Shown here: one piece after another, positions 26,396 to 30,607 of the stretch
How positions within the stretch are numbered: position 1 is the stretch's first letter
Layout of the letters: each line of letters opens with the position of its first letter
DNA from: an uncultured Pelagibacteraceae bacterium
Lineage (GTDB): Bacteria > Pseudomonadota > Alphaproteobacteria > Pelagibacterales > Pelagibacteraceae
Length of the DNA: 64,000 bases
NCBI GenBank assembly: GCA_902613545.1
Contig: CACMHW010000004.1
Coordinates: 1 to 64,000 of the forward strand
Direction: 5' to 3'
Position numbers and translations under genes: made by a program
The notes under the pieces: model-generated
Told to the model about the DNA's origin: nothing
The model's database searches: none
What the model saw: only the letters and a program-made list of their open reading frames with translations

Positions 26396-26995
26396 TTATT
26401 TGATCAGAATAAACAATCCTGTTAATACTAATAAAATAGCCAGCAAGTATTCAATAACTTTTTTTATTTTAATATTGTTCACAAATTTTCTCAAACCACT
26501 TCCAAATAAAGCCCATAGACTAATTGTTGGAAAACAAATTACTGCTGCGGTAATTGTTACAAATCCAACACCAATAATAATATTTTCTTCAGTTGGATAA
26601 AAACCTGAAGCGACAGTGATAGCGATAGACCAGGCCTTCGGATTAATAAATTGAAACAAAGAGGCTTCATATAATTTTAATGGCCTTCCTGTTTCTTTTT
26701 GAGCTAAACTAAATGATCCAATCATTTTCCATCCTAAATAAAGTAAATATAAGAAACATAATATTTTCATATAAAATTGAATTTGCGGATAAAGTAAAAA
26801 TAGATTAGCTAAACCAAAGCAAGTAAGACCTATCTGTAATATGTGACCTAATGGTATTCCAATAAGATGAGGAAGTGTTCTAATAAACCCAAATTTCATT
26901 CCCGAGGCCGTAAGCATTGCATTATTAGGTCCTGGTGTAAAAAACATTGTAAAATAAAATGCTGCTAAGGCTGTAAAAAGTGTAAAGGTAATCAT
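26396..26995 (-). CDS. LysE-family amino acid exporter
   Basis: A 199-residue membrane protein with about six hydrophobic segments and the RhtB/LysE signature FTPGPNNAMLTASGMKFGF at residues 20-38. FINPKAWSIAITVASGF is the second conserved block. The family exports lysine, threonine, homoserine or other small amino acids. Substrate cannot be assigned. It overlaps the start-proximal HAD gene's stop by 4 bases, so the two are likely co-transcribed. Confidence 0.85.
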   Translation of the reverse strand: MITFTLFTALAAFYFTMFFTPGPNNAMLTASGMKFGFIRTLPHLIGIPLGHILQIGLTCFGLANLFLLYPQIQFYMKILCFLYLLYLGWKMIGSFSLAQKETGRPLKLYEASLFQFINPKAWSIAITVASGFYPTEENIIIGVGFVTITAAVICFPTISLWALFGSGLRKFVNNIKIKKVIEYLLAILLVLTGLFILIK

Positions 26996-27654
26996 AGATA
27001 TTTTTCAATTATTTTTTCGAAGCCTATAAAATCAGAAATTAGTTCATCATGCTTGATTTCGTTCTCAGTTTTTTCTGTGTAACCGTCTTTTACCAAAATA
27101 AAAGGTAATTTTGCATTGTTAGCTGACATGGCATCCACCTCACTATCACCCACCATAATTGTTTTTTTTAAATCACCACCGATTATTTCAACTACATCTG
27201 TTAAATGTCTAGGATCAGGCTTATTAAAGGAAAAGGTGTCAGATCCTGCCACATATTCAAAGTATTGAAAAATATCTAATTTTTTTAACAAATCTATAGC
27301 TAGCTTCTCTTGTTTATTGGTACACACAGCCATTGATATATTTTTGTTTCTAGCCCATTTAAAAAAATCTATTGATCCTTTAATTGGAACACTGTTACGA
27401 TCAATATTTTTTGAATAATAATCAATAAATTCTCTTGTCATCTCTTTTTTAATCTTTTCATCCTTAATTTCCTGTTTTAAAGACCTTTGCATCATCAGCC
27501 ATGCGCCTCTACCAGCGAGCGATTTTACTTCCTCCATTTTTTTTTCTGCGTGACCATATTTTTTCATTACGTGGTTATGTGCAGCCATTAAATCTGGAGC
27601 TGTATTGACTATTGTGCCATCTAGATCAAAAAGGATTGTATAATTTTGATTCAT
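26992..27654 (-). CDS. gph: HAD hydrolase, phosphoglycolate phosphatase-like
   Basis: A 220-residue HAD phosphatase with the four motifs in order: FDLDGTIVNTAPDL (motif I, nucleophile Asp), VCTNK (motif II), NKPDPRHL (motif III lysine), and VGDSEVDAMSA (motif IV). The alpha-helical cap lies at about residues 15-80, as in subfamily IA. Phosphoglycolate phosphatase is the closest named type, recycling 2-phosphoglycolate. Other small phosphate esters remain possible. It is divergent from the GlmU-like gene across 69 bases. Confidence 0.8.
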   Translation of the reverse strand: MNQNYTILFDLDGTIVNTAPDLMAAHNHVMKKYGHAEKKMEEVKSLAGRGAWLMMQRSLKQEIKDEKIKKEMTREFIDYYSKNIDRNSVPIKGSIDFFKWARNKNISMAVCTNKQEKLAIDLLKKLDIFQYFEYVAGSDTFSFNKPDPRHLTDVVEIIGGDLKKTIMVGDSEVDAMSANNAKLPFILVKDGYTEKTENEIKHDELISDFIGFEKIIEKYL

Positions 27655-27723: not shown

Positions 27724-28371
27724 ATGAATACAAATAATAAATTAAATAAAGCTAATTCTTACAGACTTTCTCAAGAACTTTTAAGAAATAAAGCTTTAAA
27801 GAAGGGTGTAAATTTAATTGCACCAGAAACAATTTTTTTATCTGAGGACACTCTATTTGGAAAAAACGTAACTGTTGAGCCATATGTTGTTTTTGGACCA
27901 AAAGTGAAAGTTGGCGATAATTCATATATAAAATCTTTTACACACATTGAAGGAACAAGAATTGAAAAAAATGTGATTATTGGTCCTTATGCAAGATTAA
28001 GACAAGGCACAGTACTAAAAAATAATTCAAAAATTGGAAATTTTGTTGAGACAAAAAAATCAAGTATTGATCAAAACTCTAAAGTTAATCATCTTACATA
28101 TATCGGAGATACGTCCATAGGTAAGAATTCAAATATCGGAGCTGGTACAATTACTTGTAATTATGATGGTAATAAAAAATCTAAAACAAATATTTCAGAT
28201 AATGTTTTCGTTGGGTCTAATTCTTCACTAGTAGCTCCAGTAAAAATTGAAAAAGGAAGCACTATTGGTGCAGGTTCAGTCATTACAAAAAATGTAAAAA
28301 AAAAATCATTAGCCTTAACTAGAACAGCACAACAGGAAATAACAAATTATAAAAGAAAGAAAAAAAAATAA
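27724..28371 (+). CDS. GlmU acetyltransferase domain only (no uridylyltransferase domain)
   Basis: A 215-residue protein equal to the C-terminal half of GlmU. It begins with the linker (NSYRLSQELLRNKALKKGVNLIAPET), then a left-handed beta-helix with the acetyltransferase residues: RLR in YARLRQGT, ETKK, NHLTYIGD with His and Tyr, NIGAGTITCNYDG, FVGSNS and LTRTAQ. It would acetylate glucosamine-1-phosphate. The roughly 230-residue N-terminal UTP-transfer domain is missing, and the 69 bases upstream cannot hold it. The ATG at 27724 is preferred over 27646, which would run into the divergent gph. glmS overlaps by one base. Confidence 0.85.
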   Translation: MNTNNKLNKANSYRLSQELLRNKALKKGVNLIAPETIFLSEDTLFGKNVTVEPYVVFGPKVKVGDNSYIKSFTHIEGTRIEKNVIIGPYARLRQGTVLKNNSKIGNFVETKKSSIDQNSKVNHLTYIGDTSIGKNSNIGAGTITCNYDGNKKSKTNISDNVFVGSNSSLVAPVKIEKGSTIGAGSVITKNVKKKSLALTRTAQQEITNYKRKKKK

Positions 28372-30188
28372 TGTGTGGAATTATTGGTATAGCAAGTTAT
28401 AAACCTGTTTCTGTAAATATAATAAATTCATTAAAAAAATTGGAATACAGAGGTTATGATTCTGCTGGTATAGCAACAATTAAAAAAGACCTAATTGATG
28501 AGAAAAAATGTTCAGGAAGAGTAGATGAACTAGAAAAAATTCTTTTTAAAACACCCTCTGATGGAAACATAGGAATAGGACATGTAAGATGGGCAACGCA
28601 TGGTATTCCAAATCTGATTAATGCTCATCCTCACTCATCCGAAAGTGTTTCAGTAGTTCATAATGGTATTATAGAAAATTCAGATGAACTGAAAAAAAAT
28701 CTTTTATCTAAAGGTCTTAAATTTAAATCACAAACTGATACCGAAGTTATAACTATTTTGATTACTGAGGAATTAAAAAAAAATAAACCTTTAGTCTCAG
28801 TATTCAAAACGCTTAACAAACTCAAAGGTAGCTTTGCGCTTGGAATTATTTTTAAAGATTTCCCAAATATTATAATTGGCGCTAGAAGAGGAAGCCCTCT
28901 TGCTGTGGGGTACTCGAATAAGGAAAATTATCTTGGGTCCGACTCCTATGCTTTAAAATCTATGACAAATAAAATTTCATATCTAGATGATGGAGAGCTA
29001 TGTGTTTTGTCAAAAAATGAAGTTAGTTTTTACGACTTTAGTATGAAAAAAATCAACAAAAAAGTTCATATTGTTTCCAATGATGAAAACATGGCTGAAA
29101 AAGGAGATTACAAAAACTTTATGTCTAAAGAGATATTTGAACAACCTATAACAGTAAAAAAATGTGTTAATGAATATATTGATAATTTAAAAAAAGACAT
29201 AAATATTTTTAATTTTCCAATCGATCCAAGAGAAATAAAAAAGATATATTTAATAGGGTGTGGAACAGCTTATCATTCATGTCTTGTTACTAAATATTGG
29301 ATAGAGGAATTAACTAATATTGATGTTGAAACAGATATTGCATCAGAGTTTAGATATAGAAATTTAAAATTTGATAAAAAAAATCTTTATATTTTTGTTT
29401 CCCAATCTGGTGAAACAGCTGATACAGCAGCTGCTTTAGATATATGCAAAAAAAATAATGTTAAAACATGTTCTGTAATTAATGTTATTGAGAGCACCAT
29501 AGCTAGAAATTCTGACTGGGTTTTACCTATACACGCTGGACCAGAAATAGGTGTTGCCTCTACAAAAGCATTTCTTGGCCAGCTAATCGTTTTGTACATT
29601 CTTTCTTTAAAATTGGCATCTGTTAGGGGAGAAATAACTAAAGATATTTATATTAAGAATATTCAAAATTTAATAACTCTTCCTGAAACAATTAAAAGTA
29701 TTTTGAAATTAGAAAGTAAAATTCAAATGATGGCTAAAGAATTTATAAATGCTCGTGGTACTATGTTTTTAGGTAGAGGTAGCTCATTTCCAATAGCTCT
29801 TGAAGGAGCTTTGAAACTTAAAGAGCTTTCGTACCTTCATGCAGAAGGTTATCCTGCTGGTGAAATGAAACATGGTCCACTTGCATTAATTGAAGAAGGT
29901 TTGCCAGTAATAGTAATTGCACCTAAAGATAAATATTATGAAAAAACACTTTCAAATATGCAAGAAGTTATATCGAGAGGTGGAAAAATATTTTTATTAA
30001 CTGATAATAAAAAAGACGCGTTAAGTGAAAATATTCGATTTGGTTTAAGAGTTCCTCATTTAGATAATTTGTTATCAGGAATTTTATTAACGGTTCCACT
30101 ACAACTTTTAGCTTATCACGTAGCATTACTTAAAAATTGTGACATTGATAAACCAAGAAATTTAGCTAAGTCCGTTACAGTTGAATAA
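28371..30188 (+). CDS. glmS: Glutamine:fructose-6-phosphate aminotransferase
   Basis: A 605-residue two-domain enzyme making glucosamine-6-phosphate, the first step toward UDP-GlcNAc. The N-terminal glutaminase starts MCGIIGIAS, so Cys-1 is the nucleophile after Met removal; RWATHG and NGIIENS are also seen. Two SIS isomerase domains follow, with GCGTAYHSC, SQSGETADT and the C-terminal DKPRNLAKSVTVE. Length is normal. Its start overlaps the short GlmU stop (TAATG), so the two amino-sugar enzymes are translationally coupled. Confidence 0.95.
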   Translation: MCGIIGIASYKPVSVNIINSLKKLEYRGYDSAGIATIKKDLIDEKKCSGRVDELEKILFKTPSDGNIGIGHVRWATHGIPNLINAHPHSSESVSVVHNGIIENSDELKKNLLSKGLKFKSQTDTEVITILITEELKKNKPLVSVFKTLNKLKGSFALGIIFKDFPNIIIGARRGSPLAVGYSNKENYLGSDSYALKSMTNKISYLDDGELCVLSKNEVSFYDFSMKKINKKVHIVSNDENMAEKGDYKNFMSKEIFEQPITVKKCVNEYIDNLKKDINIFNFPIDPREIKKIYLIGCGTAYHSCLVTKYWIEELTNIDVETDIASEFRYRNLKFDKKNLYIFVSQSGETADTAAALDICKKNNVKTCSVINVIESTIARNSDWVLPIHAGPEIGVASTKAFLGQLIVLYILSLKLASVRGEITKDIYIKNIQNLITLPETIKSILKLESKIQMMAKEFINARGTMFLGRGSSFPIALEGALKLKELSYLHAEGYPAGEMKHGPLALIEEGLPVIVIAPKDKYYEKTLSNMQEVISRGGKIFLLTDNKKDALSENIRFGLRVPHLDNLLSGILLTVPLQLLAYHVALLKNCDIDKPRNLAKSVTVE

Positions 30189-30190
30189 TC

Positions 30191-30607
30191 ATGTCAATGA
30201 AATATAAAGCAATGGTTTTATCTTGCATTGATCCAAGATTTCAACCAATAGTTTTTAATTATTTAAATAAAAAAAAATTAAAAGGAAAATATAGTTTATT
30301 TACTATAGCCGGAGCTTCAATTGGAGTAACAGCTCCAAAGTTTAAAAACTGGCACAAAACATTCTGGGATAACTTTGAAACATCAATAAAAATTCATAAT
30401 ATACAAAAGTTGATAGTGATAAACCACCGTGACTGTGGGGCTGCAAAAATCATAAATGAAAAAAAAAAATTTAATAGTTTAAATGAGTTAAAAATTCATA
30501 AATCTTCATTTAAAAAAATAAAAAAAATTTTTAAAAAAAAATATCGTAAACTTAAAATTGAAACTTATTTAATTTCACTAAATAAAAAAATAGAAAAATT
30601 TAATTAA
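30191..30607 (+). CDS. Small beta-carbonic anhydrase-like protein
   Basis: A 138-residue protein with the zinc-site pattern of beta-carbonic anhydrases: Cys-x-Asp-x-Arg in VLSCIDPRFQ near the N-terminus and His-x-x-Cys in INHRDCGAAK at about residue 78. It is clearly shorter than true beta-CAs (about 200 residues) and lacks the usual C-terminal helices; it ends in a very lysine-rich stretch. It may be an active minimal enzyme or a zinc protein of other function. It follows glmS by 2 bases and its 3' end overlaps the convergent pgl gene. Confidence 0.65.
   Translation: MSMKYKAMVLSCIDPRFQPIVFNYLNKKKLKGKYSLFTIAGASIGVTAPKFKNWHKTFWDNFETSIKIHNIQKLIVINHRDCGAAKIINEKKKFNSLNELKIHKSSFKKIKKIFKKKYRKLKIETYLISLNKKIEKFN

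Follow-up and report, generated by a model that had tools for sequence, protein, structure and literature searches.

GlmU reduced to its acetyltransferase domain in many Pelagibacteraceae, and candidates for the missing uridylyl transfer

Textbooks present GlmU as a bifunctional enzyme, and it is a drug target; GlmS is the first enzyme of the pathway that it serves. SAR11 bacteria rank among the ocean's most abundant bacteria. In the stretch of SAR11 DNA analysed here (referred to as the window; 64,000 nucleotides from an uncultured member of the Pelagibacteraceae), the gene in front of glmS encodes only the C-terminal half of GlmU. Its annotation as bifunctional GlmU would misstate the pathway in these bacteria, and the locus raises the question of which enzyme carries out the uridylyl transfer.

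The truncated gene and its occurrence

The open reading frame in front of glmS (Table 1) has an ATG start and was matched by the glmU model TIGR01173 at positions 223-452 of 452 only, with a score of 251 bits that lies below the curated cut-off for the bifunctional enzyme (366.85). Model NF010933 was matched at positions 230-435, Hexapep repeats were detected in a Pfam search, and solved GlmU sequences aligned by their C-terminal halves alone (residues 227-455 of 2v0h, which we take to be GlmU of H. influenzae). The N-terminal uridylyltransferase domain is missing, with matches beginning at model position 218-223, whereas the C-terminal left-handed β-helix acetyltransferase domain is present with its active-site residues. 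These results agree with an earlier note on this DNA, which had described a GlmU reduced to its acetyltransferase half.

Table 1. Features of the glmU-glmS locus (positions in the window).
Feature	Position	Strand	Remarks
GlmU acetyltransferase gene (predicted), stand-alone, 215 aa	27724..28371	+	linker helix and left-handed β-helix
Helical linker remnant (joins both domains in full-length GlmU)	27727..27807	+	TIGR01173 from position 223
Histidine codon of motif NHLTY	28090..28092	+	invariant in 59/59 aligned sequences, split and full-length
glmS, glutamine--fructose-6-phosphate transaminase	28371..30188	+	TIGR01135, 748 bits (cut-off 418)
Divergent HAD phosphatase (gph/MupP-like), upstream bound of the glmU locus	26992..27654	-	PGP_bact, 140 bits (cut-off 180)

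Ten acetyltransferase positions (in E. coli numbering presumably R333, K351, H363, Y366, N377, N386, Y387, S405, A423 and R440) were compared in 59 split and full-length sequences. Nine of them were invariant, and A423 was present in 55 of the 59; the histidine of NHLTY is taken to be H363, the catalytic base. The linker helix is likewise kept, as seen by eye in a comparison with the full-length glmU at the corresponding locus of another member of the family (G001), so that the preservation of both residues and linker reported earlier was borne out. The divergent HAD gene (27654) and the start of the open reading frame (27724) are separated by 69 bases, into which an N-terminal domain of about 225 residues cannot fit, as had also been noted. 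Based on family knowledge and the conserved residues, the C-only protein would acetylate GlcN-1-P, and it is very probably a working glucosamine-1-phosphate N-acetyltransferase, with the last step of the pathway outsourced to another enzyme.

Two neighbouring genes deserve mention. For the HAD phosphatase, phosphoglycolate phosphatase models scored best, below cut-off, and the MupP model NF009696 scored 65 bits. In Caulobacter, the locus tag of MupP (CCNA_02390) directly follows that of GlmU (CCNA_02389), according to the accessible part of the source (PMC13046382); by analogy of position, the phosphatase beside glmU may be a MurNAc-6-P phosphatase. A short carbonic-anhydrase-like open reading frame (138 aa; 30191-30607), recognised by eye, directly follows glmS.

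The occurrence of the split gene was determined in an order sample of 147 Pelagibacterales genomes, comprising 94 genomes of the window's family (f1, Pelagibacteraceae, with genera g1-g6) and 53 of its sister family (f2). At a threshold of E<=1e-30, GlmU was matched in 130 of the 147. All 83 matching genomes of g1 (11), g3 (69), g4 (2) and g6 (1) contained the C part alone, a count that includes one g3 genome (G068) whose match starts 28 bases from the contig start, so that it cannot tell split from full-length. Full-length GlmU was present in the five genomes of g2 (2) and g5 (3), and 40 of the 42 matching f2 genomes scored above the full-length cut-off, with the other two fragmentary. GlmU was not matched at E<=1e-30 in six genomes of g3 and eleven of f2. 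The earlier note had asked whether all Pelagibacterales share the split: g1, g3, g4 and g6 do, while g2, g5 and f2 have kept the full-length gene. In the following, g1, g3 and g6 are referred to as clade B; g4 is probably the freshwater group LD12.

Forty named loci of the Pelagibacteraceae (L159-L198) were also examined. All 39 other than L198, which a contig end truncates, contain a C-only open reading frame of 214-240 aa. The divergent HAD gene lay within 71 bases in 38 of these 39 and 2.1 kb away in L197. A seemingly longer match in G121 was considered as a decayed remnant of the N-terminal domain and rejected: the gene is a 206-aa C-only open reading frame with the HAD gene 68 bases upstream, which leaves no room for the domain.

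A frameshift just upstream or a second full-length glmU elsewhere had been named as alternatives to a genuine split. Such an explanation (assembly artefact, pseudogene, or extra acetyltransferase beside a normal GlmU) could draw on the incompleteness of the window's genome, which comprises 991,549 bp on 26 contigs and is 85% complete. However, TIGR01173 detected no other GlmU or GlmU N-terminal domain in that genome, only paralogues of at most 51 bits, and several split genomes that are single-contig and 99-100% complete contain the C part and no full-length GlmU. Since the gene is C-only across the 83 matching genomes and in 39 of 40 named loci, assembly error, frameshift and decay are contradicted, and we consider the probability of this alternative negligible. 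The gene is split and retained across the genera named above.

A class sample, spread evenly over the Alphaproteobacteria, comprised 142 genomes. GlmU was matched in 134 of them, and the window's genome was the sole C-only one; apart from this split genome, the window's family was represented by one further member (G001). Some other GlmU matches in the sample were incomplete, and several of these lay at contig starts. Several side observations were made in these surveys. The N-terminal GlmU match occurred alone in G193, G204, G223, G236 and perhaps G248 of the class sample, a mirror loss; the GalU of G193 is unusual too, with N at position 109. In two f2 genomes, a second GlmU-C-like open reading frame of 200-215 aa was seen. 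One (L249:1941-2543, G075) lies amid membrane and polysaccharide-type genes, and the other (L250:963-1610, G057) adjoins a SET-domain-like open reading frame and a phosphoheptose-isomerase-like gene, both settings being judged by eye. In a further f2 genome, the glmU match consists of two overlapping pieces with a stop (G053:C24:581-1863), possibly due to an assembly error.

Probable deletion in place and number of losses

In two genomes with full-length GlmU (G001 and G007), a prpB-like gene, the divergent HAD phosphatase, glmU and glmS follow in this order (names assigned by eye). The window has a similar order, except that an additional gene separates the phosphatase from the prpB-like gene. 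In the f2 loci read, the order HAD gene, glmU, glmS is kept, but the next gene is a different one. This agreement between split and full-length loci indicates that the N-terminal domain was deleted in place. The C part of glmU and glmS share one base at 28371, an overlap that had been taken as a sign that the split enzyme was kept in the pathway. The spacing between the two genes ranged from -1 to +9 in 11 split loci and from -1 to +8 in nine full-length loci, so the one-base overlap is ordinary and no sign of the split. Retention in the pathway as opposed to decay is thus supported by residue conservation and clade-wide occurrence; the argument from the overlap falls away.

The number of losses was assessed on a tree of RpoB and RpoC (20 genomes, 2757 columns), built by a quick method without bootstrap and including two partial g5 genomes; G097 fills 34% of the columns, and the RpoB of G032 is partial. 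This tree was used because those of GlmS (three changes) and the GlmU C-terminal part (two changes) place g4 differently; the latter two were based on 20 of 21 sequences, G038 having been dropped after a motif miss. In the RpoBC tree of f1, g1, g6 and g3 (all split) are separated from g4 (split), which stands beside g2 and g5 (full-length), with SH-aLRT values of 98-100. A topology that constrained the split genomes together was rejected (AU test, p=3.65e-6), and a single shared loss was discarded on these grounds. The domain was therefore probably lost twice, in clade B and in g4. One loss followed by regain of the domain in g2 and g5 would require an equal number of changes; it is judged unlikely only because the locus and the C-terminal domain look vertically inherited.

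Candidates for the uridylyl transfer

The earlier note had held that UDP-GlcNAc synthesis would require a separate uridylyltransferase, which fits the lack of any other GlmU N-terminal domain in the window's genome. Homologues were sought with PF00483, TIGR01173 and PF01704, and in the window's genome also with PF12804. The paralogues found in that genome were identified as RmlA, a CBS-linked nucleotidyltransferase, GalU, a MurU-like protein, IspDF and KdsB, and were rejected as an orphan GlmU N-terminal domain; KdsB and IspDF are CTP enzymes by family. The search for an orphan uridylyltransferase proposed earlier thus returned none of the GlmU type, and the only PF00483 proteins present in all 12 split genomes examined (95-100% complete) were GalU and MurU. 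In two of the split genomes, each a single contig and 99% complete (G011 and G020), the PF00483 proteins number only three: GalU, MurU and a ManC-like protein, the last recognised by its motif. ManC-like, RmlA, CBS-linked and O-antigen-type nucleotidyltransferases are each absent from some split genomes and were discarded as general partners, as was an extra 250-aa nucleotidyltransferase of g4, which sits among sugar-modification genes (by eye). UAP1-type PF01704 proteins were sought in 25 genomes and yielded three fragments below threshold, none above 15.5 bits; the control matched 0 of 14 genomes, so that a positive control was lacking for this search. This process of elimination leaves GalU or MurU for the missing step. 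A uridylyltransferase from an unrelated family could have escaped a search confined to homologues of the families named. It appears improbable, since conserved motifs of GalU carry clade-specific changes and MurU is functionally a close relative, and we know of no unrelated family of this kind that forms UDP-GlcNAc.

GalU of the window's genome is encoded outside the window (G000:C4:89971-90753). TIGR01099 is its best family match, yet the score of 255 bits is below the cut-off of 326.8, which was passed by none of the 147 genomes of the order sample. At E<=1e-45, this model detected GalU in 89 of 94 f1 and 0 of 53 f2 genomes; within the order, GalU is thus restricted to f1, where the GlmU domain was lost. 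It is common elsewhere in the class (109 of 142 genomes at E<=1e-60). The gene order panC-galU-ugd was found in all 13 loci read, covering all six genera (genes recognised by their motifs), and its constancy makes the GalU genes look like orthologues.

Residues were compared in the 60 GalU sequences extracted from the 89 f1 genomes, with positions given in the numbering of the window's genome. Positions 21, 109 and 168 are S, T and W in all 53 sequences of clade B, and K, L and Y in the five sequences of g2 and g5 and in both sequences of g4. Clade-B GalU thus departs from the motifs GLGHA and YG[IV], having T and W in place of L109 and Y168. As a control, 50 other alphaproteobacterial GalU sequences from 49 genomes were used (30 best and 20 among the lowest of the 109 matching genomes). 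Position 109 was L in 49 of 50 and N once, a count that includes an incomplete sequence (L362) selected with a motif in which L at this position is mandatory; position 168 was Y in 49 of 50 and F once, and position 21 was K or R in all 49 readable sequences. Judging from the alignment, the three positions would line the sugar pocket. In it, position 109 corresponds to T of the GlmU motif GTG[HD]A and to L of RmlA, so that L109T is the counterpart of L89T of RmlA, a substitution that increased sugar-1-phosphate tolerance according to the accessible part of a review (PMC9415975). At position 168 of the alignment GlmU has Y, and Y168W is therefore not GlmU-like.

Rates of divergence were compared in few, non-independent pairs. 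The GalU/GlmS distances were 0.305/0.335 in clade B (four g1-g3 pairs), a lower ratio than the 0.388/0.300 between g2 and g5 (three pairs), and MurU showed no such fall (0.575/0.335 vs 0.513/0.300). Relative to RpoBC, the distances between genera were lower in clade B for GalU, MurU, AmgK (only two pairs in clade A) and GlmS alike. The GalU ratio was about half (1.38 vs 2.80), and that of MurU dropped from 4.09 to 3.26, less than the ratios of GalU or GlmS. Taken together, these distances lend weak support to GalU.

We consider it somewhat short of an even chance that GalU performs the missing UMP transfer in the window's clade (g1, g3, g6). Against this assignment, g4 has also lost the N-terminal domain, yet both of its GalU sequences keep K21, L109 and Y168. 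Remodelling of GalU is thus no general requirement, and MurU would be the simpler choice for a single partner common to both losses. In clade B, the loss and the GalU changes fall on a single branch and represent one co-occurrence, not a repeated correlation. Moreover, 15 GalU positions, including the three discussed, separate clade B from g2 and g5 under the criteria used, so that the motif changes may belong to a wider divergence. GalU also still lies beside ugd, and its old role probably persists.

The alternative is that the MurU-like enzyme encoded in tsaE-amgK-murU accepts GlcNAc-1-P as well as MurNAc-1-P, so that the N-terminal domain became redundant in the family ancestor and was then lost twice. 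In the window's genome, this arrangement, with a tsaE-like gene, was read at L010:521-2184 (G000:C7). The MurU-like protein (L010:1486-2184) scored 129 bits, far under the cut-offs of the MurU models NF045761 and NF045697 (250 and 370), and its neighbour best matched AmgK models (131 of 550 bits). An amgK-like gene, recognised by its motifs, lies beside murU in 35 of 40 loci. NF045761 matched 138 of the 147 genomes, other nucleotidyltransferases included, and is unusable as a count of MurU. Sequences were compared in a set of 45 plus one outgroup, from which L078, L091 and L094 (CBS-linked nucleotidyltransferases) and L092 (another nucleotidyltransferase) were dropped. A family-specific N-x-D-T motif was observed at the catalytic Asp.

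What makes MurU a good rival is its presence in both clades without the domain, together with a g4 GalU that has none of the three changes; MurU alone could account for both losses. The gene was found in all 12 split genomes examined, one of them from g4. According to the accessible part of the source, MurU was discovered by virtue of its identity to the transferase domain of GlmU, and its neighbour AmgK phosphorylates MurNAc and GlcNAc (PMC5371407). Beside the catalytic Asp there is a family-specific change (T111 in 34 of 34 f1 sequences; V, I or N in 11 of f2). However, only a single fixed difference (P109 for S) distinguishes the MurU of clade B (27 sequences) from that of g2 and g5 (5) under the criteria used, and MurU evolves as fast relative to GlmS as in the full-length relatives, its smaller drop against RpoBC being given above. 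AnmK is present in 92 of 94 f1 genomes, which argues that MurU probably keeps its recycling role; with AnmK in 130 of the 147 genomes of the order sample, the idea that MurU fell idle through loss of MurNAc recycling was rejected. The low model score of the MurU-like protein also speaks against it, and activity of MurU on GlcNAc-1-P was not found in the accessible parts of the open-access literature searched (PMC13041923, PMC9356107, PMC5371407, PMC13046382). MurU as the common partner is therefore regarded as a serious but rather unlikely explanation.

Two separate replacements, by a remodelled GalU in clade B and by MurU or another enzyme in g4, would account for GalU residues that are altered in clade B only and for the separate losses favoured by the RpoBC tree and AU test. 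Such a history would require two recruitments, and g4 yielded no specific candidate change; we rate it as doubtful, to a degree similar to the MurU explanation. It overlaps with the explanation preferred below, so that the likelihoods assigned here do not sum to one.

Proposed pathway and comparison with known systems

Taken as a whole, the best explanation, to which we give an even chance, is that the gene encodes the C-terminal domain of a formerly bifunctional GlmU whose N-terminal domain was deleted in place, with GalU as the most likely partner. GlmS would make GlcN-6-P, GlmM (a putative step) would convert it to GlcN-1-P, the C-only GlmU would acetylate this to GlcNAc-1-P, and a separate enzyme would transfer UMP to yield UDP-GlcNAc, assuming that UDP-GlcNAc synthesis continues. 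In clade B, this enzyme would most likely be the GalU of panC-galU-ugd, with its apparently remodelled sugar pocket (K21S, L109T, Y168W); because the gene still adjoins ugd, GalU is proposed to be a dual Glc-1-P/GlcNAc-1-P uridylyltransferase. All enzymatic activities, and the assignment of GalU, are predicted from sequence. More specifically, and tentatively, the natural GalU of SAR11 group I may have been retooled at the sugar pocket to form UDP-GlcNAc, and probably UDP-glucose too, freeing GlmU to shed its domain, while g4 would have lost the domain independently by means of another enzyme.

The loss of the uridylyltransferase half across a large part of a dominant marine clade, apparently on two occasions, was unexpected, and two candidates, GalU and MurU, can be named for the missing step. 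If the GalU reading is true, a single streamlined uridylyltransferase feeds the peptidoglycan/lipid A and glucuronate pathways, and GlmU has dispensed with a domain retained by nearly all relatives sampled. The loss hints at a way in which genome streamlining may bring two nucleotide-sugar routes together. In L109T there may be a naturally occurring equivalent of an active-site change from L to T that is, to our knowledge, known only from engineering.

The protein resembles bifunctional GlmU (TIGR01173; 2v0h) in its C-terminal sequence, linker, acetyltransferase residues and neighbour glmS, and differs from it in having no N-terminal uridylyltransferase domain. In eukaryotes, acetylation and uridylylation reside on separate proteins, namely GNA1, a GNAT that acts on GlcN-6-P, and UAP1, a PF01704 protein. 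The two activities are similarly split in SAR11, but PF01704 was not credibly found in the SAR11 genomes searched. Rickettsia also has a GlmU cut to one domain in a genome-reduced alphaproteobacterium; according to the accessible part of the source, its uridyltransferase is kept and the acetyltransferase absent, as explained by host-derived GlcNAc-1-P (PMC5615194). SAR11, by contrast, presents the mirror image and keeps the acetyltransferase. Its cells are free-living. RmlA L89T, as described in the accessible part of the review (PMC9415975), shares the L-to-T exchange at the position aligned with GalU 109; it is an engineered thymidylyltransferase, whereas the clade-B change is natural and occurs in a GalU orthologue. 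Finally, the AmgK-MurU recycling operon is present in SAR11 and supplies the rival uridylyltransferase, although its product, as reported in the accessible parts of the sources, is UDP-MurNAc and not UDP-GlcNAc (PMC5371407, PMC13046382).
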